Assembly (NCBI GenBank): GCA_028753945.1
Contig: JAPNXP010000009.1
Span: 868,001-932,000 of the forward strand
Direction: 5' to 3'
Source: Hexactinellida sp. DTS-2022
Lineage: Eukaryota > Porifera > Hexactinellida
Length of the DNA stretch: 64,000 nucleotides
Shown piece after piece: positions 335-64,000 of the stretch; the first letter of the stretch is position 1, and each line of letters begins with the position of its first letter. A model generated the notes under the pieces. It did not search any database and was not told where the DNA came from. It was given only the letters and a program-made list of their open reading frames with translations. A program made the translations under genes and the position numbers.

Positions 335-3300
335 TTAGTATCTCTCTCGATCCTCCCCTCTCCAATCTGGAGGGCGGTTGGCCCATTCATGGACAGGAAC
401 ATCACCCCATATCTGACTATCTCTCCTGCTCATATGATCATAACAGATCTTTCGGTTTCTCTGCGCTCGCAGACCTCTCGAAGAAACGTAATTTCCGATT
501 GTGTGATTAGTCCGCATGGGCCCCTCTCTCCTGTCTTCCCTTCTGGTGTAACCGCGCCCTCTCGACCGTGGCCTCTCATCCCTCCTGCCTCTCCTAGAGT
601 TGTTGTTGTTGTTGTTGTTATCATTACACTCTTCTTCGCCTCTGTGTTCATCATAGAACGTTTGCTCGGTTATAACTGTGAATTGGTCAATCCAGTGCTT
701 CCAAATGAGGGACCTTCCCTGTGCCAATGTATTCGTGTTGCCTACTCCAATCACAGCACACTTGGCTCTAGTGAGCAGCACATTGATCCTATACGGGCTG
801 TCTGTGAATCCCAATGCCCCTTCAGGATTGTTCCTGACAGTGCTGAATAAGATAACTTCCTTTTCTTTCCCTTGGAAGCCGTCAATAGAGGATACCTCAA
901 CCCTGGCGACCAAGTCCAGCTTCTCTCTGAGGCACCTCACCTGTCCAGTGTACGGAGTTAGTATTGCTATCTCACTCAGTTTGTACTTGGCCAGTTGAAT
1001 CAGTCGTTTGACCACCTCTACGATTACGTCAGCTTCCTTGCTGTTCTTGTATGAAGACCCAGTGTGCTGCTCCGGAGAATCCACGTCAATGAACACAATC
1101 GGTTCGTGAGCAGGCAGGAACCCGACCTGGGGCGGCACCCTATCTTCCTTCGAAACAGCTGTTTTCAGCATTCCTGAGTAGAACACTCTCGAGGGGAAGT
1201 CGGCTATGCTCGGATGCATGCGGTGCTGCTCGTCCAGGAAGTAGGACTTGATCTTGCCGTGCAGACGGTGGAAGAGCGTCTTGCAGAGAGCCTCGAAGCG
1301 GGGGACCTCGGGGGGACAGATATGATCGCGGGAATCGTGTTTGCTCGGCAGTGTGGGCGCCAGCTGTTTGGGGTCCCCGATAAGTATTAATTTCTCACAG
1401 GACTTTGCTATAGAGATGAGTGATACCGGTTCTATGGCTTGAGTTGCCTCGTCGATAAGAACATAGGAGAACCTTATTGTCTTTAGGTCTGCATCGCCTG
1501 CACCAGTGCACGTTGTAGCTATTATATCCACCGAATTAAGTATTTCCTTCTTCAGCTTTGGAGATTGGAATTCCCCCTTCTTGTCCTGTCCCATGTCGAC
1601 CCGTTTCATCTCGACTTGATGCTCCAGCGAGTATTCATGGAGATGCTTCGCAATTTGGTTCTTCTTCCCCACACGTATAACTTTCAAGCTAAGTGTCACG
1701 AGCTTCTGAGTGAGATTGTCCACTGCATTGTTAGTTTCAGCTGCCACCAGTATCTTACACTTGTCGTCGCCGTCAGCATTAATCTTCATCTTATGGACCA
1801 GCTGGTGTACGATCTCGCAGGCGACAAAGGTCTTTCCGGTCCCCGGAGGTCCGTGCACTAAGGTCAGGCGCTGCGTGAGAGCGGCAGAGATCGCGTTCTC
1901 TTGGCTCTGGTTGAAGCGCGTTCTACCTCGGTACTCACAGGCGGGGCAGTCCCCATACGCGAGGTACGGATTAACTATTGGGTCGTCTTTGCCAGGGAGC
2001 TGGACCTGTTCAGGTTTCGGTGCTTGGAAATCTGGCTCATTAACGTCTGCGGTTAACTCCGGCGGAAACGCCTCTGGGGATATTAGTATCGAGATAATCC
2101 CTGGAGAGCAAATGGACTGCAGAGCTTTACTAGACCTCTTGAAGCTGGTGACGTTACCGAGCAGGGTCAGGCACCAGTAGCCCATCTTCAGGCTGGCAGA
2201 CCTCTTCAGAGACTCGGGAACGGGCTCGGCGATGTCCACCACTATGTCTGTGGGGCTCCGCGAGAGAACTGAGATGCAGCCGAGTGCTATCGGGTCTTTG
2301 GAGTGCAGCGAGGTAGGTTTGCTCATAAGACTGATCTTAACATACGAACCGATAGAAAATTTGTTAGAAGTTAGCTTATTTATTCGCGAGAAACAAGCTT
2401 TCCAAGTTTGGGGCTTCGCCTTCTTTTTCCTCTTCTTCTTCTTCTTCTTAACTTCGGGCGCGGCGGGCGCGGCGGGAGTGACGTCACTGGTTTCACTCTC
2501 GCTGCTGCTGAGCAGCTCCACTTTGGCTCGCTTGTCCTGTGAGCTCAGGACCCTCAGCAGACACACGGAGTCCTCAGAGTCCTTAACTTTGCTAAACTCC
2601 TCTTTGCCAGGCGCCTCTGCTAGCAGGTGCTTCAGCATTAGGTAGGCGTAGTAGCACTTGTACTCATTGAGTTGCGCCTGGTCGAGAGGCGGGGGCTCAA
2701 CACACGCCGTCACAGCTAAAGCCTGAATAACGCCAGCTGTTTCTGTCTCTACCTCATCGCCGTCCGTGGGTTTATCAGCTGGTATTAGTCTCTTGGCAGG
2801 GTCGAGCTTACGGGCCAGAATATATAGTCTGTCGGACAGCTCACAAGCAATTGATAAGGGCAGGAAAGACCACTTCTCCCAATTGAAAATAGTTTCGAAG
2901 TACTGTCCTATAGTCGACATTTCAAGTTTACAAATGAGACAGTCAGAGTATTTCGCGATGGTATCGAACAGCTGTAGTTTGCTGAGACATGTGTATATCC
3001 GGAGCAGATCGCTGGGAGAGGGAATGGAAATGTGAGGGCAGTTCATTACTGCACTCAAATCCGCAGTAAAAGTGTCCGAAGGTTTTCTATGGGAACTGCT
3101 AACAACGAGATTAGTCATCAGCAAAATAACTTCTTCTGTTAGTTTAGTGCGCGGGATTGGTTCGGGCAGTTCTGTGGTAGGCTGTGGAATGAGACTGATT
3201 ACTTTCTTGAAATTTACTAAATCTCCTTTCTTAGCAAACTCTCCCAACGCTAGCAGAGAGGTGTCAGGAGAGAAAGGCGTGAAAAGCGCAATTTCAGCTT

Positions 3301-6300
3301 CCTCCTTTACTCCCTCGTCCTCGCTAGGCAGCTCCTCCAGACTATCCGAAGCGCCCAGGTCAGTGATGAACAGCTGATCGTCTTGCTCCGTCTCGAGGAT
3401 ATCGAAATAGACAATATCCTTGATATACCGACTCTTAACGAATACTTCAATCGATTGGAAGTTTTCTTTTTGGATTAGAGGGTGTCTGTCCACTCGCCGA
3501 ATTGTCCTTTTGAACCTGGTTAGGTCAATGCTAATCCTATCGTATATGGTATCTTGAGGATTGTTACGATCCTTTGATTGACTTTTTAACCACAGAAAAG
3601 AGTTTATGACATCATCATTCCGATATAACTGCATCATAGTCTGCGTGAGGTTCAGGTTGTATTTGCACTCAGTGACGTATCTCAGTTTATACCTGAAAGA
3701 TGGAGAAAAGAAATAGGCCACTAATGACCCAGTAGGAATTATTGACTCCCCTTCTTCAAAGGGTCCCATAAAATGAAAAGCCAATCTTTCATCATATGGC
3801 AGTTGAATAACAAAGAGAATTTCTGGGTAACCAGTCATTGCATAGAACAAGTGTCTCCAGTCGAAGTCAGCTGTGCTGTGTCTGAAGAAGAACTTCCATC
3901 CACAAGCCGGTATGTCCATATAGAAGGGCAGTAGCATCTCTTTGTCGAGAAGCCGGGACTTGTTCAGTGCATTCAATACATTGCCTATTGGGATGCCCAG
4001 CTCTATCGCTTCAATCCTCTCTTTCATTGTCAACAGCCCGAAGTTGATGTAGTCGGAGAGTTCTATCAGCTTTTCCTTTTTCTTACTTTTCGAGATTTCC
4101 TGAACGTCGCACCATTTGTATAGCAGACAGAACAGTTTGTATTCAGAAATCCCTCTGTTCGTATCCTCCAGGAGATTCCTAATGAATTTCTCTGCAATGA
4201 AGCTAGCAGACTGGCCCTCTCCCGTCGCGCACTCGACAGCCTCCGCGGAGAGTCGCTTGTTGCACTCGGCAGCTATTCTCTGCATTTCCACCCACACCCT
4301 CTCCGGGGCATCTCGGGAAGGGTTCTCAGGCTCTGGCTTAGGCGGGACGAGGTTAAATGGAATTTTTACTATGTCCCCTGTCTTTGAGGAATCAACGCTT
4401 CGAGAGAACCAAGCTCCCAGCTGCTCGCATTCATAGCACCCTGGCCCCTTTATATCAGCCCAATACTGGAAATAGTCGTTGATCCTACCCATCATGTTCC
4501 TCTGTCCAGAGAAGTAGTCAATCATCATGTCCCGAGTAACCTTGTCAGAGGGGTGAGCCTCGACTGATGGGTAGTCGTAGGGATTAGCTGTGTGTGGAGG
4601 GATTAGGTCTTTGTCCCAACATACGAAGTACTGGTCTCCATCCAGGTCAGACCCGGCGATCTCCGCGGAATGCGGACACTTTCCTTTAACAGGAAACACA
4701 ATGCAATCGACGAGATGGTGGAGCTCAGAGTAGTCTACCGCAATTAGAACTCTAACGTCTCCCAGGAGGTAGCAGGGGTTCTTACCAACGACAACCTTTG
4801 TATCGGGTTGCAGGGTATTAGCCTGTCCCTGATTGGAGATTCTTACAAAGCATTCTCCGTATTCTAAAAGGCCTAGGGGGTCACAGATTCCGAACAGGGT
4901 GCGAGAGTCAAGGATTGGGATACTCAGCTTATCCAACTTGTATATCAACTTGTTCCGAATGAATCTGAGAGGGTACTGTATCTTATCTTGCTTTAACTCA
5001 TCGGGCGTTTTGCACTCGGCTACGAACGCCGCGAGGTCTGGGCGATTGCGCCACTGAAGGATGACAATAGCGAATACAGGGTCAACCAACATATTTTCTA
5101 ACCCGAGTAGAAAATCTTGTTGTTTCTCAAGAAAAACTTCTTTCTTTATCCCTAGTCCAGATAGGAGCATGATGTATTGCTTATTCAAATGTCCGTAGGA
5201 ATAAGGACGGGAATGTTCGCAAACCCAAACTTCTGGAAAAGGCCTCGACCCCGGCATAAATTTCTTCATCGAATCTCGCACCACAATTGAATCCTCATCA
5301 ATGCTTGGGTTCTTTACGATTATCCCCTTACACCCGTGGAACCTAATCTGAAAAACAGTTGGTATTCCGTCCTGTGGCGACTCAATTATTGCCTCACAGC
5401 CTTTGGCGAGTTTTGCTGCCAGTTTCAATCCCACGGATCCACACCCATCAGTGAAATTACCCCCTGCCGTCTCGATATCATCAATAACTTCAACTTTTTC
5501 ATCCGGGACAATCACGCCAGTTTTCATCGCTACAGAGAAGAGCATACTGATTCTCTTCAATCGCTTGGAAACCATTTTAATTTTTTTGAAATTACCGCAC
5601 TGATCTAGAACTTCTGTTACGTCATCAACACTCCCTCTGAGCATGTAGCACTTCCTGCTCTTGAGCCCGCTGGAGCTGCACCCCAGGAACTGGTACTCCT
5701 CTCCGTTTATGTAGACTCCCTGACGGAGGACCTCTCTGATGTAGCTGTTGTGCAACTTCCCATGGAACTGAAGGAGCACGAAGTTCTCTTCCCCGTACCG
5801 ATCTACCATTCGGTTCGTCTGAAAGCTATCCATTGGCGGGTATGTTAGGACTATTTCAGAGGGGTTTAAGTCAAAAGTCCGGACTCGGTCTTCTTTTCCC
5901 TGTTTCAGCAGAGGAAGGAAGGGTGGGTGGAGCCTCGCCTTTCTATGAGTCTCAGTGTCAAGGTAGAAAGAGAGACATTTCTGTTGCATGAACTGCTCTA
6001 TCATAATCGGTACTGTTCCCTCCACTGCTGATTTAAGTATATCCATACGCTTCTGTCGGTCCCTCTCCCCTAAGTACATGTAAGAGATGTTGAACTTCCT
6101 AAGGACCTCATGCAGGCCAGCTGTGTAGCGGTGCTTCTCTTCGTTCGAGTCAACCAACTGGGGCCCATAATCAGTGGTGTTTTCTAACGGACAAACTAAT
6201 ACCACTAAACTCCCACGGTACCGAGTGAGACATTCCTCTACAGCTTTATCGTATCTAAGTAGATCCGCTTCCTCTAGGCTTTCGAAGAAAGTATCTAAGA

Positions 6301-6574
6301 GAGGTTCAGGCCCCCGCTCAGAAATCCAGAAACCTGCAAACCCCTTCTCTCTCCGGTTCTGTTCCACAAATATTAACTTCTGGAACTCAAAGAAACACTC
6401 CTTCTGATGAGTGCTCAGAGATCTATTTAGGTCATTCTGAAAGATCCCTTGTGTTCTCATGACTTCCTTCCTCACATCGCCAATAATACCGTACTCCCTG
6501 TTCTTAGAACACCAGTCTTTAGCGAGGGTTGTCTTTCCCACTGAACTCGCTCCACACAGAATTATCCTGGACAT
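335..6574 (-). CDS. P-loop kinase / RNA-dependent RNA polymerase / SF1 helicase fusion
   Basis: Single uninterrupted 2079-codon frame. I start it at the ATG at 6574, because the upstream extension begins only with TTG. Residues 5-195 form a nucleotide-kinase-like P-loop domain (Walker A GASSVGKT, residues 8-15; AAA_28/NadR-like look). Residues about 300-960 are a eukaryotic cellular RdRP (QDE-1/EGO-1 family) with the catalytic DLDGD at about 643-647. A Lys-rich linker lies near 1375. Residues about 1400-1960 are a UPF1/ZNFX1-like SF1 helicase: Walker A GPPGTGKT at about 1575, DEAT at about 1708, GDPKQL, QHRMHP, DGFQGKE and LLTRAK. The tail has an Asn run from a GTT/AAC microsatellite, then an Arg/Gly-rich stretch. 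Known: family RdRPs amplify small-RNA silencing, and ZNFX-1 (worm) or Hrr1 (fission yeast) helicases work with RdRP in trans. Inferred: a one-chain RNA-silencing amplifier. It is intronless, unlike most neighbours. Confidence 0.92.
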   Translation of the reverse strand: MSRIILCGASSVGKTTLAKDWCSKNREYGIIGDVRKEVMRTQGIFQNDLNRSLSTHQKECFFEFQKLIFVEQNRREKGFAGFWISERGPEPLLDTFFESLEEADLLRYDKAVEECLTRYRGSLVVLVCPLENTTDYGPQLVDSNEEKHRYTAGLHEVLRKFNISYMYLGERDRQKRMDILKSAVEGTVPIMIEQFMQQKCLSFYLDTETHRKARLHPPFLPLLKQGKEDRVRTFDLNPSEIVLTYPPMDSFQTNRMVDRYGEENFVLLQFHGKLHNSYIREVLRQGVYINGEEYQFLGCSSSGLKSRKCYMLRGSVDDVTEVLDQCGNFKKIKMVSKRLKRISMLFSVAMKTGVIVPDEKVEVIDDIETAGGNFTDGCGSVGLKLAAKLAKGCEAIIESPQDGIPTVFQIRFHGCKGIIVKNPSIDEDSIVVRDSMKKFMPGSRPFPEVWVCEHSRPYSYGHLNKQYIMLLSGLGIKKEVFLEKQQDFLLGLENMLVDPVFAIVILQWRNRPDLAAFVAECKTPDELKQDKIQYPLRFIRNKLIYKLDKLSIPILDSRTLFGICDPLGLLEYGECFVRISNQGQANTLQPDTKVVVGKNPCYLLGDVRVLIAVDYSELHHLVDCIVFPVKGKCPHSAEIAGSDLDGDQYFVCWDKDLIPPHTANPYDYPSVEAHPSDKVTRDMMIDYFSGQRNMMGRINDYFQYWADIKGPGCYECEQLGAWFSRSVDSSKTGDIVKIPFNLVPPKPEPENPSRDAPERVWVEMQRIAAECNKRLSAEAVECATGEGQSASFIAEKFIRNLLEDTNRGISEYKLFCLLYKWCDVQEISKSKKKEKLIELSDYINFGLLTMKERIEAIELGIPIGNVLNALNKSRLLDKEMLLPFYMDIPACGWKFFFRHSTADFDWRHLFYAMTGYPEILFVIQLPYDERLAFHFMGPFEEGESIIPTGSLVAYFFSPSFRYKLRYVTECKYNLNLTQTMMQLYRNDDVINSFLWLKSQSKDRNNPQDTIYDRISIDLTRFKRTIRRVDRHPLIQKENFQSIEVFVKSRYIKDIVYFDILETEQDDQLFITDLGASDSLEELPSEDEGVKEEAEIALFTPFSPDTSLLALGEFAKKGDLVNFKKVISLIPQPTTELPEPIPRTKLTEEVILLMTNLVVSSSHRKPSDTFTADLSAVMNCPHISIPSPSDLLRIYTCLSKLQLFDTIAKYSDCLICKLEMSTIGQYFETIFNWEKWSFLPLSIACELSDRLYILARKLDPAKRLIPADKPTDGDEVETETAGVIQALAVTACVEPPPLDQAQLNEYKCYYAYLMLKHLLAEAPGKEEFSKVKDSEDSVCLLRVLSSQDKRAKVELLSSSESETSDVTPAAPAAPEVKKKKKKRKKKAKPQTWKACFSRINKLTSNKFSIGSYVKISLMSKPTSLHSKDPIALGCISVLSRSPTDIVVDIAEPVPESLKRSASLKMGYWCLTLLGNVTSFKRSSKALQSICSPGIISILISPEAFPPELTADVNEPDFQAPKPEQVQLPGKDDPIVNPYLAYGDCPACEYRGRTRFNQSQENAISAALTQRLTLVHGPPGTGKTFVACEIVHQLVHKMKINADGDDKCKILVAAETNNAVDNLTQKLVTLSLKVIRVGKKNQIAKHLHEYSLEHQVEMKRVDMGQDKKGEFQSPKLKKEILNSVDIIATTCTGAGDADLKTIRFSYVLIDEATQAIEPVSLISIAKSCEKLILIGDPKQLAPTLPSKHDSRDHICPPEVPRFEALCKTLFHRLHGKIKSYFLDEQHRMHPSIADFPSRVFYSGMLKTAVSKEDRVPPQVGFLPAHEPIVFIDVDSPEQHTGSSYKNSKEADVIVEVVKRLIQLAKYKLSEIAILTPYTGQVRCLREKLDLVARVEVSSIDGFQGKEKEVILFSTVRNNPEGALGFTDSPYRINVLLTRAKCAVIGVGNTNTLAQGRSLIWKHWIDQFTVITEQTFYDEHRGEEECNDNNNNNNNSRRGRRDERPRSRGRGYTRREDRREGPMRTNHTIGNYVSSRGLRAQRNRKICYDHMSRRDSQIWGDVPVHEWANRPPDWRGEDRERY
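600..623. repeat. GTT trinucleotide microsatellite in coding sequence
   Basis: A run of GTT units on the plus strand. It encodes a poly-Asn stretch near the C-terminus of the RdRP-helicase protein. Its length is probably variable. Confidence 0.9.
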
Positions 6575-42600: not shown

Positions 42601-45600
42601 GTTCCTAAGAACAATGTAACACTCTTACTGTATACAGGACAGAAGGGTATGGACGGCGACCAAGGCGACAGAGGGACACAAGGAAACTCCGGAGAGAAGG
42701 GGACTATTGGTACCACTGGAGGGCAAGGAGATCAAGGAACCCCAGGACCCCAGGGTAATATTCTGTATATTGTATGTATGAGCACTCCGTTTTAACGCAA
42801 CTTGCAAGTAGGAATTGATGGAAGGAAGGGAGCGGATGGGTTCGGAGGGGATCAGGGGGAAGAAGGAGAAGACGGCTTAAGAGGAGACTCTGTGGTTGGC
42901 CCCCCTGGGGACCCTGGGTTGAGCGGAAGTCCCGGAAGTAATGGGACAGAGGGCGAACAAGGTGTGACTGGTCCACAAGGACAGAAAGGGGATGAGGGCG
43001 AAAAGATAGTATTCGATGGAACCTGTCCCGACTGTCCGGACGGAGTCCCCGGAGTTTCCGGAGCCAAAGGGTTCACGGGAGACACAGGCGAGGAGGGGGT
43101 GTCTGGGGAGAGAGGGAGGAAGGGAAGCAAAGGAGCGAGAGGATCAGCTGGAGTTAGAGGGACAGAGGGAGATGAAGGAATTAATGTATGATTAGCATGG
43201 AGAACTAACTTCTTACAGTTTAGAATTAATGCTTTTAGGGACCTCAAGGAATAACAGGAGATCAAGGTTCTAAAGGAGGAAAGGGAACTATTGGAGAATC
43301 AGAAATATCAGAAGAATTTGTACCATCAGAGGATAATCCACCAGGAGAAAAAGGGGACATTGGAGCCGTTGGAACTCAAGGTGCTAAAGGAGAACCCGGA
43401 AATAAAGGACAGACTGGAGTGAAGGGCTTCATAGGAGACTCCGGAGAAGAAGTGAGTTTGTATTAAATTAGCCAAAATAATAACTACATTGCAGACATTG
43501 CAAACTAAGCGAGATTAATAACTGCAATAGCATTTGATTGGGATATACCGAATAGGGTCCGAGGGTGCCGGGGGAGAAGGGAGAGCCCGGCCCGAGTGGG
43601 ACACAAGGGGACACGGGAGCTGCTGGCGAGAGAGGGAGTAGCACGGTTGGGCCTGAGGGAGACCTGGGAGATAAGGGGGTGCAGGGCAGTGAGGGGTCAG
43701 CTGGACCTGCAGGTGGCAAAGGAGCGCAGGGCTCTAAGGGAACCGATGGCGTGGGGGGAGATGATGGAGAGGAAGGAGCGGACGGGAGTGTGGGAGGCTC
43801 AGGCATTGGTGGAGCACAGGGGGACAGAGGGGATGCAGGCCAGACAGGGGACAGAGGCACTGAGGGGACAGCTGGGGAGACAGGGACAAAGGGAGCAAAG
43901 GGTGCGGTGGGAAATAGTGGAGAATTCGGTAATAGGGGCGCAAAAGGACAGACGGGAGGGAGGGGAGTAGACGGTACCGATGGGAGAGAGGGAGAGAGAG
44001 GGAGAGATGGAATAGACGGAATCAGTGGTGTGAAAGGGAGCACAGGACTGGATGGAGACTCTGGAGAGCAGGGTATGTCATAGCTAATAATATAATATTC
44101 AAAGGATCCGAATTTTATCCTATTATACAGGACCTGTTGGAGAACCAGGCACCAAAGGAGCACAAGGGATAATAGGCCAGGTAGGCATCAAAGGTATAAC
44201 CGGCACACAGGGATTTGAAGGTGACGCAGGAGAGAGGGGACTGAATGGGAGCAAAGGGGGAGAGGGGAAGACAGGCTTCTCGGGAGATGACGGAGAGGAG
44301 GGACGAGATGGGCCTGGCGGACAAAAGGGAGAAAAGGGGCTCCCAGGCCCGGGAGGTATGAACAACAACTGATGAATGAAATAAGAATAACGAATAGTTA
44401 TAAGTTATAAGTTACTTATAACTGAATTAACCTTCTAGGAGAGAGGGGTATTAAGGGGTTTCAAGGAGACGAGGGAGATGAAGGAAACAGAGGTTCCAAA
44501 GGTATCGTTGGGGAATTGGGACTTAAAGGGGAGCCAGGTGAGGTGATACCAGGAGACCCTGGGTCTCGCGGTCCAAAGGGCGCAACTGGACAGGCTGGAA
44601 GAAAGGGACGGCGCGGAGAAGACGGGAACGAAGGAACCAAAGGAGAAAGGGGAGAGCTAGGAGACGGAGGCGATTCTAACAAAGGAATAAAAGGAATGAA
44701 AGGAACGTTAGGAGAAGAGGGGAGGATAGGATTCCTGGGTAGGGCTGGTTACATTAATGTCATTACAGTATTGAATTAGTACAATGAGTTGGACTTCCTA
44801 TTCCAATGTTCCATTAGGTGATGAAGGCGATGAAGGACCTGATGGGGGAACAGGTGACGAGGGGCCCGCAGGAGAGGGGGGCATAAATGGGAGCGTCGGA
44901 GTTAACGGAGCTAAAGGGACACCTGGAGCCGATGGTACCAAGGGGATAAAGGGAAGGAATGGGTCATTGGGAGCGCGAGGAACAAACGGCACTGATGGGG
45001 AGACCGGTATGCCCGGGTTTCTGGGGGCAGCTGGAGACACAGGAACAAGAGGCTTGAAAGGGAATAACGGAGACAAGGGAGGACTAGGGCCAATAGGCAC
45101 TACTGGAGACCGGGGCGGGAGGGGGCCTCGCGTGGATGGAGATGATGGTCTGACAGGAACAGCTGGGAGCAAGGGAGAGCAGGGGAGTCAGGGCGCGAAG
45201 GGTATTGTGGGTGTGTCTGGAGACGACGGAGACGAAGGGATTGAGGGCGGAGACGGAGAGGAGGGGGACCAAGGGGCGCCAGGGGAGACTGGTGAGAGAG
45301 GGGCGAAGGGAGAGCTGGGAAATGTTGGAAGGAAAGGGGAGAATGCGCCCGCTGGAGAAGTCGGCGATAGAGGCCAGAAAGGGGCGCAGGGAGCTCTGGG
45401 AGATAGCGGAGCCAAAGGGGGGAAAGGGGGCGTCGGTATTAGCGGAGTTGTTGGAGAGTTCGGAGAGGAAGGGACAGAGGGCATTGATGGAGAAAAAGGA
45501 GACGCCGGGTCAGAAGGCCAGAAAGGAGAAAGAGGACTGAATGGTAAGCAAATTATATAATGCAAAGCGATCCTAATAGGTAGTTTCTTAAGGAAATAGG

Positions 45601-47181
45601 TTACCAATGATTTCTTATATGATTCTAGGCACGATCGGAGAAGATGGAGACACAGGTCCTAAGGGGGCGATAGGCAGTGAGGGGCCTCGAGGAGACGAAG
45701 GCAACAAGGGTAGTGCAGGAAGTGCAGGAGTAGATGGCCTGGATGGAGAGAGAGGCGACCAGGGGGAGAAGGGAATAGGTGGCAGTGTTGGTGCGACAGG
45801 AGACAGCGGGGAAGAGGGTGACAACGGTCCCGTGGGTATGAAAGGGGATATCGGAGAGACAGGACCCATAGGCCTGGAAGGTAACGCTGGGTCTATTGGA
45901 GGTAGCGGCACAGCTGGAGAGAAGGGACAGAAGGGTGACAGCGAAGACGGGGAGGCTGGAAACAAAGGAGCCCTGGGGCCGAAAGGAAATGTAGGCCCGG
46001 TAGGAAATGGAGGCGAGAAAGGGACCAAGGGTGTAGCGGGAGATTTCGGCGAGGAAGGCGTTTTGGGGGAGAAGGGGTCGATTGGTTTCCAGGGGGACGA
46101 CGGGGAGGAGGGAGAAGAGGGGGACAGGGGACCGCAGGGCCCGGAGGGGCCGAAGGGAGACGCGGGAGGGAAAGGAGCTGTTGGCGCGAAAGGACCCACG
46201 GGAGAAAGTGGAATCCGCGGAGATCTGGGCCCAGACGGTGAGAGGGGAAATATCGGAGAGAAAGGCTATGCAACGATTGGGAAGAGAGGAGACGAAGGAA
46301 TGACAGGCGATAAGGGGATGGAAGGATTTAGAGGAACGAAAGGGGGAGAGGGGGTACAAGGGGGCAAAGGAGAGGTAGGAAGTCAGGGTGACAAAGGTGA
46401 AAAGACTGTGCAAGGAACTTCGGGAGAGACCGGTCTGGACGGAGCGAAAGGAGCGGGAGGAGAATCTGGGGATTTGGGGCCGGAAGGAACCGCCGGCTAC
46501 GATGTCTCCGGATTTATGATAGTACGTCACAGCCAGGCGACAACAGTCCCCGAGTGTCCCAACGGCTACTCGCTGCTGTGGGACGGCTACAGCTTGCTCA
46601 GCGGAGACGGAAACGGAGAAGTATTCAGACAGGACCTCGGCGCCCCAGGCTCGTGCGCGCCTATTTTCAGCTACATGCCGTTCTCAGTCTGCTCGACAAC
46701 GAAGCTGTGCAGCTATGCCAGCGGCACCGACCTCAGCTACTGGCTGTCCACACTCAAAGACAAGTTCTACATCCCGATGGGCGGGGCCGCGGTTAGCAAC
46801 TACATCAGTCGCTGCGCGGTGTGCGAGTCTCCGGGGGTGGCAATAGCGGTTCATTCTCAGAACACGAGTGTCCCCGACTGCTGGGAAGGGTGGGAACCGG
46901 TATGGGAAGGGTACTCGTACCTGCAGGAGACAGTGAGAGGAGGGCTGGGCGGACACCAACAGCTAGACTCAACTGGCTCCTGTCTAGAGAAGTTCCAAAC
47001 AGTCCCATTCCTAGAATGCATTTCTCGAGGCACCTGTGTCTCCCATAGCTACCATTTGGGATTCTGGGTTCGCGCAATAGCAGAGGACATGCAATTCGTA
47101 GCCACACAAGAGACACTGGTCGGGCCAGACGTGCTGTCTGCTATTAGCAGGTGCAGGGTGTGTGTGGGGGTGGTGGCTTAA
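39606..47181 (+). CDS. collagen type IV alpha chain (plus-strand member of the pair)
   Basis: Exon 1 is only eight coding bases (39606-39613, ATGAGGGT before a GTAAGT donor). It joins 39684-39738 to give a signal peptide (MRVTSVILLIMALAVQLHSQ). The next exon is a Cys-rich 7S-like segment (NAQCGNGSCGGTVGCACND...). Some 20 micro-exons of 27-70 nt, mostly starting with a Gly codon, follow. Then exons lengthen, and the last (from about 45629 to 47181) encodes 170 Gly-X-Y triplets plus the whole NC1. Helix interruptions include the acidic ISEEFVPSEDNPP and a CPDCPDG Cys pair. NC1 has two C4 repeats (VRHSQATTVPEC..., IAVHSQNTSVPDC...). The Lys expected in C4 repeat 2 for a sulfilimine bond is missing. 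AATAAA lies at 47261-47266. Confidence 0.95.
40263..40419. mobile_element. hAT-like MITE
   Basis: Ends CAGGGCCGCATTAAGAG and, inverted, CAAGGCCGCATTAAGGG. Flanks ACAATAAT and ACAAGAAT form an 8-bp duplication with one mismatch. It lies in an intron of the plus-strand collagen gene. Confidence 0.85.
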
Positions 47182-53185: not shown

Positions 53186-54874
53186 TTACTCTGCAGTAGG
53201 GGCAGGTTGTTCTTCCCTCGCCCTCCTAATTCCTTCCATAAGAAACTCGTGGTAGGAGTTGGCTAGCGGATCTCCGTGTGTCCGCACTGGCTCCTCTTCT
53301 CCGCGGAACTCCATCAGTCGGTTGGCGTTAATCATGTGCACAATGTCCCCCGTGTCAGGACGCATTATCATGCTCTGAACAGGGAACTCGTACGAATCCA
53401 TGGTCTTCTGTAGGAGATCCTTCACCTCTTGGTTCACAGACGCGTTGGCCATCAGCTCCTCCAGATACACGACCAGCGACCAGGAGGAAATGAAGTTCTC
53501 TTTGAGGGTAACTTGGACGACTTCACTTGCGAGGGGCCCGTCTCGCAGTGTGCGTCCCGACCCTCAGCAGGACTGGTCGTCCAGAGACCCCCACATTATT
53601 ATGGAGTGCACCAGTTTATCCTCCGCGCGGGCTGTCTCCACGGCGTCTCGGATCTCCAGATAGGATATCTTCTTGAAGGGGTACAGCACGCGCTCCAGCT
53701 CGAGAGTCGCGTTATCAGCTGACACCTCATCCTCCCACGCGGGGAGATCTAAGGTCAGGTTAGTGTGCAGTCGCATCGATGACGTATACCCGATGTCTAC
53801 CTCCATCTTCTCGCCCTCGATCTCATCCGAAGACACGATCCACTCCATGTCCACGTTAAGTTTGCGGAGGGTGGGCAGGTACAGCTCGAAGCGGAGCACT
53901 CTGTTTGCCTCCGTGTCGAAGAGGAGGCTCCCCGCGAAGTGGGCGGGGGTAAACCAGAACGGAAGCTGGGGGTCTTCGTTCAGCTGGTACTCTGCGTGGA
54001 TACGGAACACTATCTCCACAAGGGAACCGGCCTTGGCACGGATAATGGCCACGCCCCCGCGAGGGCCGAACCTGTTCTGCAGAAACACGTTGCGGTGGAA
54101 CTGCTGAAGGAGTTTGTACAAGAGGATTTCTCGCCCCGTTGGTTCGGGAGCAGTGTAGCGATTGGAATTGTAGATCTCCTCTTGCTCCTCCCCAAACATG
54201 GAAGAGACCAATCGATAGGGCATGCCCACCTCCAGGGAGTCGATCTGTGGTAGGAAGGAGCGGAAGTTCTGCTGGCTGTGCGTAGCGGTTGGGTACTCAG
54301 GCTCCGTCCAGGAGAAGAGTCCGGTAAAGTGTTTCTTCTCAGACATGAAACCTTTGAAGTAAGACTTCTTCTCATCTTGAAATGTTTTCATGGATTCCTT
54401 CTGCATAGGTGAGTATTCAGCGTACACAGTGACGCCCTCCCCTTCCGGTATCTCCTCTTGGAACTCAAACGGATCCGTGCCCCTCTCATTCAGCAGCTTA
54501 GCTACGTATTGGAACTCCCAGGGTTCCAGCGTCCCGCTCCTGTCCGAGTCGTAAATCTCGAATAGCGCCAACACCTCCGGAGGCACGTGTTGGTTCAGCC
54601 CGAGCGACCAGCGGGCGGGACTGCCCTTAGAAACTTTGTTTGTAAAGTTGCTCTCGTAATAAGCACCGGCAGTTACGACAACAATTATAAAAAATAGGAG
54701 GAAAGAGAATAAAATTCCGCAGATAGATTTTAGGAGGGTTTTCACGAACCTGGCGTTGGCTACCCACTCTTGATACCTCTCCTCTTCAATATCTCTGGTC
54801 TCCGTGGGCGTGGGAGGGGGCGGGTCGGGGGGACGGGGGCCTGGGACCTGGGGGTTTCTATTGCGAGCTGACAT
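53186..54874 (-). CDS. SELENON: selenoprotein N (in-frame UGA = Sec)
   Basis: 562 aa in one exon from the ATG at 54874; upstream is only GTG. An ER membrane reductase tied to calcium handling through SERCA. Pro-rich cytosolic N-terminus, one membrane span (ICGILFSFLLFFIIVVVTAG), then an EF-hand (DSDRSGTLEPWEF) in the luminal part. The redox motif reads DDQSC-UGA-GSGRTLR. The TGA at 53561-53563 is followed by 125 open, conserved-looking codons to the real stop, and a SECIS follows. So the TGA is selenocysteine, not a break. Automated callers would split it into two genes. Confidence 0.97.
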
Positions 54875-55078
54875 CAGCACGGTACCGTGCAGCTCAACTC
54901 AATACTATTCTGAATAATGGAACGGAGGTCTCAAGATATAAATTTTGATTGAGATATCTTATGAAGTTGTTTATATAAATACAATACTTAGATCGAAACT
55001 ATTACGTACTATCGTGATTGCAATTAGTGAAGTTTTATAACAAGTTCTTCTAAATTTACCTTCGCTTATCTCGCTTCA

Positions 55079-61544: not shown

Positions 61545-62978
61545 ATGGAAGAGCCTCTTAATCAGCCTTTTAGGCTGATTAAGTCGCAGAGAGGAGGAAG
61601 CAAGCTGGTGGAGAGAGGCTATATATATGGGATACAGAGGAGAGCAGGAGAGGTGACGCATTGGCTTTGCGAGAAGAGAGGGGTTTGCAACGCAAGAGTT
61701 CATACCCAAGGTACGGAGATAGTGAAGCGCACGAATGAGCACCTCCACGCCCCTGACGAGCAGGCAGTGAGCTGCTGTGAGACCAAGATAGGCATCAAGA
61801 GGCGGGCACGGGAATCGCAGGACAGCTCGCACCACATAGTGGGGGAGAGTATGGTGACGGTATCTGAGGGAACGGCTGTTAAGCTACCCAAGCTGGACAG
61901 CCTGAAGCGGACAATACAGCGCCAGCGCGTGCAGCAGCTGGCAGCCCCGGTGCAGCCTGCCGGTCTGGAGGAGCTGGTGCTACCGGCAGAGTACCAGCAG
62001 ACAGCCAAGGGGGAGCAGTTCCTCCTCTACGACTCGGGACCGGAGACGCAGAGGATCCTCATCTTCGGGACACAGCGCAACCTGGAGATGCTGCGACTGT
62101 CGGGCTATTGGATGGCTGACGGCACCTTCAAGACGGCTCCCTCCCTCTTCGCTCAGGTGTATGTGGTGCATGCACTCCGTGGAGGACCTCAAGTCATGCG
62201 GGATGGTCACCTGCTGCCGAGTCTGTTCGTGCTGCTGCCCAACAAGACGGAGGCTACCTACAGGAGGATGTGGGAGCAGATTCGCCTACTCTGTCCCCTT
62301 GCCCAGCCGAGGGGGATGCTCTTGGACTTCGAGAAGGCTGCGATTAACAGCTTTGAGGCGGTGTGGCCGGACACACCGGTCAAGTGCTGCTTCTTCCACC
62401 TCACGCAGAACGTATGGCGCAAGGTGCAGGCTGCTGGCTTGCAGGCTGCCTACAGCCAGGACGAGGAGCTGGCTATGCGCATCCGACACCTCCCAGCTCT
62501 CGCGTTCGCCCCGATCACGGATGTGCCCGCCCTGTTTGCAGCTGTAGCGACGCTGCTCCCGATGCCAGAGGCCGCCGAGCTGGTCCTGTACTTCGAGGGG
62601 ACCTACATCGGGCGTACTCTCCCAGGCGGCACATACCAGGCGCCGCTGTTCCCTATCGGCCTCTGGAACTACCACATGGAGACGCCCTTCGGACTGCCTC
62701 GGACCACCAACGCCGTGGAGGCCTGGCACCGCAGCTTTAACGCCACTGTTGGCTGCCACCACCCTACCATATGGAAGTTCTTAGCTGCCCTGAAGCGGGA
62801 GCAGGGCCTTGTGGAGGTGCGGCAGGCTAAGTTCACCGCAGGAGCGGCGCCCACCAAGCGGAGGAGCGCACAGGCTAACGAGAAGAAGCTGGTTAATCTA
62901 GTCACCAGTTATTATAGTCGTAGTCGTATAGAGTTCTTGAGAGGAGTAGCACATCATTTCAGTTTGGGAGCGGATTAA
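61545..62978 (+). CDS. MULE-type transposase with FLYWCH-like zinc finger
   Basis: 477 aa from the ATG at 61545, intronless and GC-rich against an AT-rich background. The N-terminal 75 residues look like a FLYWCH/WRKY-type finger (WLCEKRGVCNARVHT ... HLHAP, CxxxxxC and HxH). A linker follows, then a MULE DDE domain: first Asp in WMADGTFKTAP, second in LLDFEKAAINSFE, the CCFFHLTQNVWRKV block, and Glu in TTNAVEAWHRSFNA. It cuts and pastes DNA and normally leaves 9-bp duplications. A perfect hairpin AATCAGCCTTTTAGGCTGATT lies at the start of the frame (about 61559-61579). The gene is intact and may be active. A second copy faces it. Confidence 0.92.
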   Translation: MEEPLNQPFRLIKSQRGGSKLVERGYIYGIQRRAGEVTHWLCEKRGVCNARVHTQGTEIVKRTNEHLHAPDEQAVSCCETKIGIKRRARESQDSSHHIVGESMVTVSEGTAVKLPKLDSLKRTIQRQRVQQLAAPVQPAGLEELVLPAEYQQTAKGEQFLLYDSGPETQRILIFGTQRNLEMLRLSGYWMADGTFKTAPSLFAQVYVVHALRGGPQVMRDGHLLPSLFVLLPNKTEATYRRMWEQIRLLCPLAQPRGMLLDFEKAAINSFEAVWPDTPVKCCFFHLTQNVWRKVQAAGLQAAYSQDEELAMRIRHLPALAFAPITDVPALFAAVATLLPMPEAAELVLYFEGTYIGRTLPGGTYQAPLFPIGLWNYHMETPFGLPRTTNAVEAWHRSFNATVGCHHPTIWKFLAALKREQGLVEVRQAKFTAGAAPTKRRSAQANEKKLVNLVTSYYSRSRIEFLRGVAHHFSLGAD

Positions 62979-64000
62979 TACCTATCACTAGGCTGTTAAT
63001 CCCTCTCTACTGAATTGGTGTGCCACGACTCTTAGGAACTCTATTCTAGTGCGGTCATAATAGCTGGTTGCTAGGTTAGTCAGCTTCTCCTCGTTAGCCT
63101 GTGCGCTCCTCCGCTTGGTGGGCGCCGCTCCTGCGGTGAACTTAGCCTGCCGCACCTCCACAAGGCCCTGCTCCCGCTTCAGGGCAGCTAAGAACTTCCA
63201 TATGGTAGGGTGGTGGCAGCCAACAGTGGCGTTAAAGCTGCGGTGCCAGGCCTCCACGGCGTTGGTGGTCCGAGGCAGTCCGAAGGGCGTCTCCATGTGG
63301 TAGTTCCAGAGGCCGATAGGGAACAGCGGCGCCTGGTATGTGCCGCCTGGGAGAGTACGCCCGATGTAGGTCCCCTCGAAGTACAGGACCAGCTCGGCGG
63401 CCTCTGGCATCGGGAGCAGCGTCGCTACAGCTGCAAACAGGGCGGGCACATCCGTGATCGGGGCGAACGCGAGAGCTGGGAGGTGTCGGATGCGCATAGC
63501 CAGCTCCTCGTCCTGGCTGTAGGCAGCCTGCAAGCCAGCAGCCTGCACCTTGCGCCATACGTTCTGCGTGAGGTGGAAGAAGCAGCACTTGACCGGTGTG
63601 TCCGGCCACACCGCCTCAAAGCTGTTAATCGCAGCCTTCTCGAAGTCCAAGAGCATCCCCCTCGGCTGGGCAAGGGGACAGAGTAGGCGAATCTGCTCCC
63701 ACATCCTCCTGTAGGTAGCCTCCGTCTTGTTGGGCAGCAGCACGAACAGACTCGGCAGCAGGTGACCATCCCGCATGACTTGAGGTCCTCCACGGAGTGC
63801 ATGCACCACATACACCTGAGCGAAGAGGGAGGGAGCCGTCTTGAAGGTGCCGTCAGCCATCCAATAGCCCGACAGTCGCAGCATCTCCAGGTTGCGCTGT
63901 GTCCCGAAGATGAGGATCCTCTGCGTCTCCGGTCCCGAGTCGTAGAGGAGGAACTGCTCCCCCTTGGCTGTCTGCTGGTACTCTGCCGGTAGCACCAGCT
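61972..64000. repeat. large inverted repeat (MULE palindrome)
   Basis: Arms 61972-62880 and 63092-64000 match wherever I compared them, around a 211-bp centre that is only partly self-complementary. The axis is near 62986. The right arm runs off the window, so total arm length is unknown. Confidence 0.92.
62988..64000 (-). CDS. MULE-type transposase, second copy (cut by window edge)
   Basis: At least 335 aa; the N-terminal part lies outside the window. Protein and DNA appear identical to the first copy over the compared DDE core (position x in one copy pairs with 125972 minus x in the other). Past about 62880/63092 the C-terminal 35 residues differ at many sites. Catalytic Asp and Glu positions are all kept. 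Convergent, tail-to-tail with copy one, with 9 bp between stop codons. Confidence 0.92.
   Translation of the reverse strand, partial: LVLPAEYQQTAKGEQFLLYDSGPETQRILIFGTQRNLEMLRLSGYWMADGTFKTAPSLFAQVYVVHALRGGPQVMRDGHLLPSLFVLLPNKTEATYRRMWEQIRLLCPLAQPRGMLLDFEKAAINSFEAVWPDTPVKCCFFHLTQNVWRKVQAAGLQAAYSQDEELAMRIRHLPALAFAPITDVPALFAAVATLLPMPEAAELVLYFEGTYIGRTLPGGTYQAPLFPIGLWNYHMETPFGLPRTTNAVEAWHRSFNATVGCHHPTIWKFLAALKREQGLVEVRQAKFTAGAAPTKRRSAQANEEKLTNLATSYYDRTRIEFLRVVAHQFSREGLTA

Follow-up and report, generated by a model that had tools for sequence, protein, structure and literature searches.

A predicted fusion of a NadR-type head, an RNA-dependent RNA polymerase and a UPF1-like helicase in a glass sponge and its relatives

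The Schizosaccharomyces pombe RDRC (Rdp1-Hrr1-Cid12) and the Caenorhabditis elegans pair EGO-1 and ZNFX-1 each partner an RNA-dependent RNA polymerase (RdRP) with a superfamily 1 (SF1) RNA helicase, and Hrr1 is described as the orthologue of ZNFX-1 (PMC9276528). In both systems the partners are separate proteins. The gene described here lies on the minus strand, at positions 335-6574, of a 64,000-nucleotide stretch of the genome of the glass sponge Hexactinellida sp. DTS-2022 (the window, C18:868001-932000 of an 18-contig, 112.4-Mb assembly). It is predicted to encode an RdRP and an SF1 helicase in one chain, and the helicase is of the UPF1 type. Nidovirus replicases (RdRP and nsp13-type SF1 helicase) are alike in arrangement only, having an unrelated RdRP fold and separate subunits.

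Fusion of an RdRP to an SF1 helicase is already known from amphioxus (BL02069, 2019) and Fusarium (Fgrdrp5, 2024). Fusarium graminearum Fgrdrp5 is likewise one chain, in which an RdRP is followed by a helicase with the AAA domain PF13087, and among the fungal RdRPs treated there it stands on a branch of its own (PMC11237814). It differs in being fungal, in having a helicase termed DEXDc/DEAD-like and in that its description there reports no head. Branchiostoma lanceolatum BL02069 is an animal RdRP with AAA_12, a domain that appears in a figure legend; the main text nowhere uses 'kinase', 'helicase' or 'fusion' (PMC6396948). The same source describes animal RdRPs outside the nematodes as occurring in scattered groups of animals, often lost and with no settled job. 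The main text of the glass-sponge genome paper (PMC10280926) contains no mention of RdRP, RNA-dependent RNA polymerase, RNAi, Argonaute or Dicer.

Organization of the open frame

The frame runs from an ATG at 6574 to a stop at 335-337 and comprises 2079 codons with no stop inside. Judged from base composition, the odds of so long an open frame arising by chance are about 10^-48. All parts given below lie on the minus strand; residue numbers in the Pfam searches were shifted by +3, the frame there having been started at an upstream TTG. The first-pass annotation, made from the letters of the sequence, had described one frame with an N-terminal P-loop, the RdRP motif DLDGD and the main SF1 motifs, and this description is borne out by the frame, Pfam and the motifs. 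The profile searches and structure prediction it proposed recovered an AAA_28/NadR-type head, an RdRP domain (PF05183) and an SF1 helicase.

The RdRP domain occupies residues ~238-749 (4328-5863) and matches PF05183 with E = 1.4e-109 over profile positions 3-553 of 582. The catalytic DLDGD is at residues 643-647 (4634-4648), and a sequence match in the PDB is to 'RNA-dependent RNA polymerase 2' (1.8e-51). By domain match and DxDGD motif the protein is a cellular-type RdRP, for which RNA synthesis is predicted.

The head, residues 1-187 (6014-6574), carries the Walker A sequence GASSVGKT at residues 8-15 (6530-6553). It matches AAA_28 weakly (E = 5e-6) yet over the full length of the profile. 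An AlphaFold2 (AF2) model of residues 1-230, one of the models made from alignments with whole proteins as rows (76 rows; 48 rows), has a mean predicted local distance difference test score (pLDDT) of 85.1. When compared with the PDB, the head model retrieves NadR and nucleotide kinases, with NadR joint first by fold. NadR is also the best solved relative by sequence, as found with the related protein P0125 (TIGR01526, 1.8e-10; PDB, 1.5e-5). The model thus points to a P-loop kinase fold of the NadR nicotinamide-riboside/nucleotide-kinase type. The head has in common with the NadR ribosylnicotinamide kinase domain the fold and the P-loop, and in P0125 also a DDGxR stretch; it differs in that no nicotinamide mononucleotide (NMN) adenylyltransferase domain was matched in the fusion and in that motifs are altered in the window copy. 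There are two AAA_28 matches in the genome, both in RdRP fusions (E<=0.001; 29 of 39 candidates scored).

Behind the RdRP, the AF2 model has a helical middle region without a family assignment at residues ~1103-1328 (2591-3268), the least conserved part of the protein, and a beta-strand region at residues ~1336-1449 (2228-2569), which precedes the helicase core. The core, residues 1550-1965 (680-1927), is recognized by Pfam (AAA_12, E = 4.7e-51; AAA_11, E = 1.2e-46), by PDB matches and by the full main set of SF1 motifs: I (GPPGTGKT, 1575), Ia (1612), II (DEAT, 1708), III (GDPKQL, 1733), IV (1872), V (1897) and VI (1931). The chain ends in an Arg/Gly- and Asn-rich tail, residues ~1983-2079 (338-628), which is probably disordered (pLDDT mostly <50).

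The helicase had at first been labelled ZNFX1/UPF1-like, and only the second half of that label is retained. It scores 204 bits against UPF1 and 147 bits against ZNFX1, whereas a ZNFX1 of the same genome (L044) scores 582 bits against ZNFX1 and 106 against UPF1. The ZNFX1 domain PF25396 was not among the best 25 of 29 Pfam families matched in the window protein, and the same library found it in this genome in L044 (7e-17), L046 (3e-13) and L054 (1e-19), indicating that separate ZNFX1 genes exist. A ZNFX1 identity of the fused helicase is rejected on these scores, the PF25396 result and the contrast with L044, and the sequence comparisons indicate a UPF1/IGHMBP2-like rather than a ZNFX1-like enzyme. 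The helicase tree, whose deep forks are weak, also places it away from ZNFX1. Core fold and motifs are shared with UPF1 and IGHMBP2. The beta strands sit where UPF1 has its 1B barrel, a placement by position only, as the UPF1 alignments start near model residue 273. Unlike in UPF1, the helicase sits behind an RdRP, and the UPF1 zinc-binding domain PF09416 was not among the best 25 of 29 families (weakest E = 0.095). Elsewhere in the genome, four AAA_12 helicase frames lie on one strand at C1:17078529-17099535, 6.7-6.9 kb apart.

Relatives and common descent

An intact paralogue of 2111 residues on C8 (L027:1849-8181) is 52% identical to the window copy, and its parts are arranged as in that copy. 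The first protein search gave 267 matches and the second, with the Actinostola protein as query, 1365; homologue counts refer to the best 120 of each. Named members in the first search come from Dysidea, Ephydatia, Actinostola, Mercenaria, Mya and Dreissena. The nearest named homologue among the matches listed is P0007 of the glass sponge Oopsacas minuta (66%), titled 'Regulator of nonsense transcripts 1'. Homologues P0001 and P0002 share the N-terminus MSRIILCGAS. New among the matches listed in the second search were Hydractinia, the rotifer Adineta and the diatom Amphora with AAA_28, RdRP and helicase, besides RdRP and helicase in the diatom Seminavis and an RdRP alone in the diatom Attheya.

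By motif, head, RdRP and helicase are combined in 60 of the 120 listed homologues, so that the search for the same fusion in related genomes, suggested by the first-pass annotation, succeeded. A further 49 have RdRP and helicase without the P-loop pattern of the head: in 30 the DLDGD comes before residue 500, leaving no room for a head, and in 19 there is room, with the P-loop changed or cut. The remaining 11 are without the DxDGD or helicase pattern. A query with the head alone gave just 12 proteins, of 150-212 residues. One of these short head open reading frames (ORFs), P0128, comes from a contig of the same size (593064) as that of headless P0088, a hint that the head may be followed by an intron; no such match was found for the other 29 headless proteins. 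Another, P0123, is paired likewise with P0022, a fragment without DxDGD. In P0014 and P0016 (Oopsacas), P0024, P0026 and P0027 the P-loops of head and helicase are kept and DxDGD is missing, a possible loss of polymerase activity.

Headless combinations of RdRP and helicase occur in the fungi Cladobotryum and Trichoderma, in two lichens and in the EukProt protein P0151, whose name, comp37497_c0_seq1, is in a style that we take to denote an assembled transcript. AAA_28 was not found at E<=0.01 in fungal P0147 or in P0151; the headless status of P0148-P0150 comes from precomputed domains and length only. A single pattern scan of viral contigs, which reaches close relatives only, gave four matches and no confirmed relative.

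The trees were quick ones of selected rows, with support from the SH-like approximate likelihood ratio test (SH-aLRT) only and with long outgroup branches. The RdRP tree (41 rows) and the helicase tree (40 rows) have 32 rows and 18 of 29 splits in common, as against a maximum of three in 1000 label shuffles. Between head and RdRP trees (23 rows) 13 of 20 splits are common, the shuffled maximum again being three. The three modules thus descended together and keep a fixed order. With midpoint rooting, the RdRP tree places the fungi and P0151 outside the 31 rows that hold every head-bearing row, and the simplest story is therefore that the RdRP-helicase fusion came first and the head was added later, an order sensitive to rooting and long branches. 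The diatoms branch among non-sponge animals (SH-aLRT 98 and 96), which may reflect transfer or a long-branch effect. The placement agrees with the stramenopile sequences reported inside an animal RdRP group by Pinzon et al. (PMC6396948).

Taken by their sequences, the three-part proteins form an old, little-studied family, mainly of animals, with NadR-type head, RdRP, linker and UPF1-type helicase. One animal RdRP family would thus bring a UPF1-type helicase and a co-evolved nucleotide-kinase head rather than a bare polymerase. The literature searched yielded no counterpart for the NadR-type head, for the way it has changed in one line of paralogues, for a UPF1 rather than ZNFX1 identity, or for a distribution that takes in sponges, cnidarians, bivalves, a rotifer and a diatom. 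Nor did it yield any RdRP with a kinase, AAA_28 or NadR head, which is weak evidence of absence as most subscription journals and all preprints lay outside the search.

Possible function

A role in RNA silencing or defence is probable for the family. For the window protein we favour helicase-assisted synthesis of double-stranded RNA (dsRNA) on target RNA, with a probability of roughly 0.55; the downstream use of the dsRNA, for small interfering RNA (siRNA) or sensing, is less certain. The helicase would clear proteins and structure off target transcripts for the RdRP of the same chain, which would copy them into dsRNA to supply Dicer and Argonaute. The tail might aid RNA binding, and the head could act as a nucleotide-binding control module. 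As a setting for RNAi, the genome contains paired RNase III domains and six open Piwi frames with near-complete domains, besides Piwi fragments. Fgrdrp5 is one of three Fusarium RdRPs that are reported to share, in part, the production of exonic siRNA (PMC11237814).

Several observations weigh against this reading. UPF1-type helicases move 5'-3' and an RdRP reads its template 3'-5'; with these opposite directions, simple towing on one strand fails. The window gene is known from genome sequence alone, and its head matches NadR by sequence with E = 0.069 only. Fgrdrp5 is headless as described, and its likeness is by description only (PMC11237814). No siRNA role was detected for the Branchiostoma RdRPs, BL02069 with its AAA_12 among them, in the account given in PMC6396948, and secondary siRNAs were undetected in Nematostella according to PMC12768352. 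The first-pass view of the fusion as a hard-wired silencing complex is upheld in part: RdRP and helicase are in one chain and Fgrdrp5 provides a tie to siRNA, but the helicase is not of the ZNFX1 type and no such tie was detected in the two animals.

The same negative results in amphioxus and Nematostella favour an antiviral or stress factor outside siRNA amplification. Acting on foreign RNA, such a factor would make or remodel dsRNA to allow sensing or a decay like that by UPF1, and no secondary siRNAs would arise. The UPF1-like nature of the helicase is consistent with such a role, as is the induction of three of the four Nematostella RdRps by poly(I:C), a viral/dsRNA mimic (PMC12768352). 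However, the Fusarium relative Fgrdrp5 acts within an siRNA pathway, and the Nematostella data cover its RdRps generally, unassigned to the kinase-RdRP-SF1 architecture. We judge this account rather unlikely.

In the head alignment (111 rows, 11 of them left out for not covering the P-loop), all four head motifs are kept in 66 of 100 heads, the C8 paralogue included. Three of the four are lost, with the P-loop kept, in the window copy, P0001, P0002 and P0004-P0008. The window head has SER and DYGPQ where the paralogue has SDR and DDGVR, at the acidic Walker-B-like residue that precedes Arg and at the DDGxR lid, respectively; a Glu replacing Asp in the former may still function. Identities of head and RdRP to the window copy are 85 and 91% (P0001), 74 and 87% (P0002), 51 and 76% (P0004), 53 and 75% (P0007) and 56 and 70% (P0008); those to the C8 paralogue are 77 and 80% (P0011), 71 and 79% (P0012), 61 and 64% (P0010) and 52 and 59% (P0009). 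The kinase-like head of the first-pass annotation stands as a NadR-type fold, with kinase motifs beyond the P-loop changed in the window copy. This head is probably a non-catalytic nucleotide binder, and in many relatives it resembles an active small-molecule kinase.

The motifs kept in the majority of heads, and the rank of NadR among solved relatives, would also suit a head that is a working kinase for nicotinamide riboside, nucleosides or RNA ends, its activity being coupled to RNA copying, a reading that we consider improbable. No polynucleotide 5'-kinase was among the best 50 rows of either PDB fold list, and a polynucleotide-kinase identity found no support in these lists or in the sequence searches, although absence from such lists leaves it possible. 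Slightly more doubtful still is a link to nicotinamide adenine dinucleotide (NAD) metabolism, in which the nicotinamide-riboside-kinase-like domain of many family members and of the C8 paralogue would sense or make a nucleotide of the NAD pathway and thereby turn the RdRP on in infection or stress, or would supply an NAD-type nucleotide to start the new strand, the window head having become a pure sensor. If true, this would make the protein a dsRNA synthase of early animals that is self-contained and gated by a metabolite. The idea that neighbouring genes were joined by chance, in assembly or in annotation found no support and is rejected, given the single frame, the intact C8 paralogue, the 60 of 120 listed homologues and others with equal part order, and the transcript-style name of P0151.

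Other polymerases of the genome and features of the window

The genome has seven RdRP genes with a stop-free domain and one broken remnant at C1:10121012-10122509, in three matched pieces, two with an internal stop. Besides the two three-part fusions, the other five RdRP genes are single long frames: L028 (C15:1312120), L029 (C11:1531723), L030 (C7:2137069), L031 (C11:14649043) and L032 (C4:4486919). A Dicer/RIG-I-type superfamily 2 (SF2) helicase lies in front of the RdRP in these proteins (Pfam in four of five; L028 also against the PDB), only its C-terminal half being seen in L032. At the C-terminus a nucleotidyltransferase-like domain, PF22600, is matched in all five at E<=0.01 and above the cut-off in one, and FGSV...SDLD is conserved in all five; in a first search against the PDB the tail of L029 matched simple repeats only. 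These proteins appear to combine a helicase, an RdRP and a Cid12-like part in a single chain. On domain matches, then, the genome fuses such parts in two ways, as kinase-RdRP-SF1 helicase and as SF2 helicase-RdRP-nucleotidyltransferase, and the parts of these two opposed designs are concrete enough to be tested in sponges and anemones that are tractable.

Elsewhere in the window, a minus-strand ORF at 53564-54880 resembles selenoprotein N. The TGA at 53564-53566, within SC-U-GSGRTLRDG, is probably selenocysteine and not a stop; no selenocysteine insertion sequence (SECIS) reaches the Rfam gathering score in the window. Two collagen-like ORFs with Gly repeats lie at 44784-47181; the C-terminal part of the second, which contains cysteine, resembles by eye a collagen IV/spongin end domain. 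An inverted repeat at 61972-64000, reaching the window end, has arms of 992 nucleotides that are 98% complementary and 45 nucleotides apart, and holds two near-identical ORFs labelled by eye as transposase-like.

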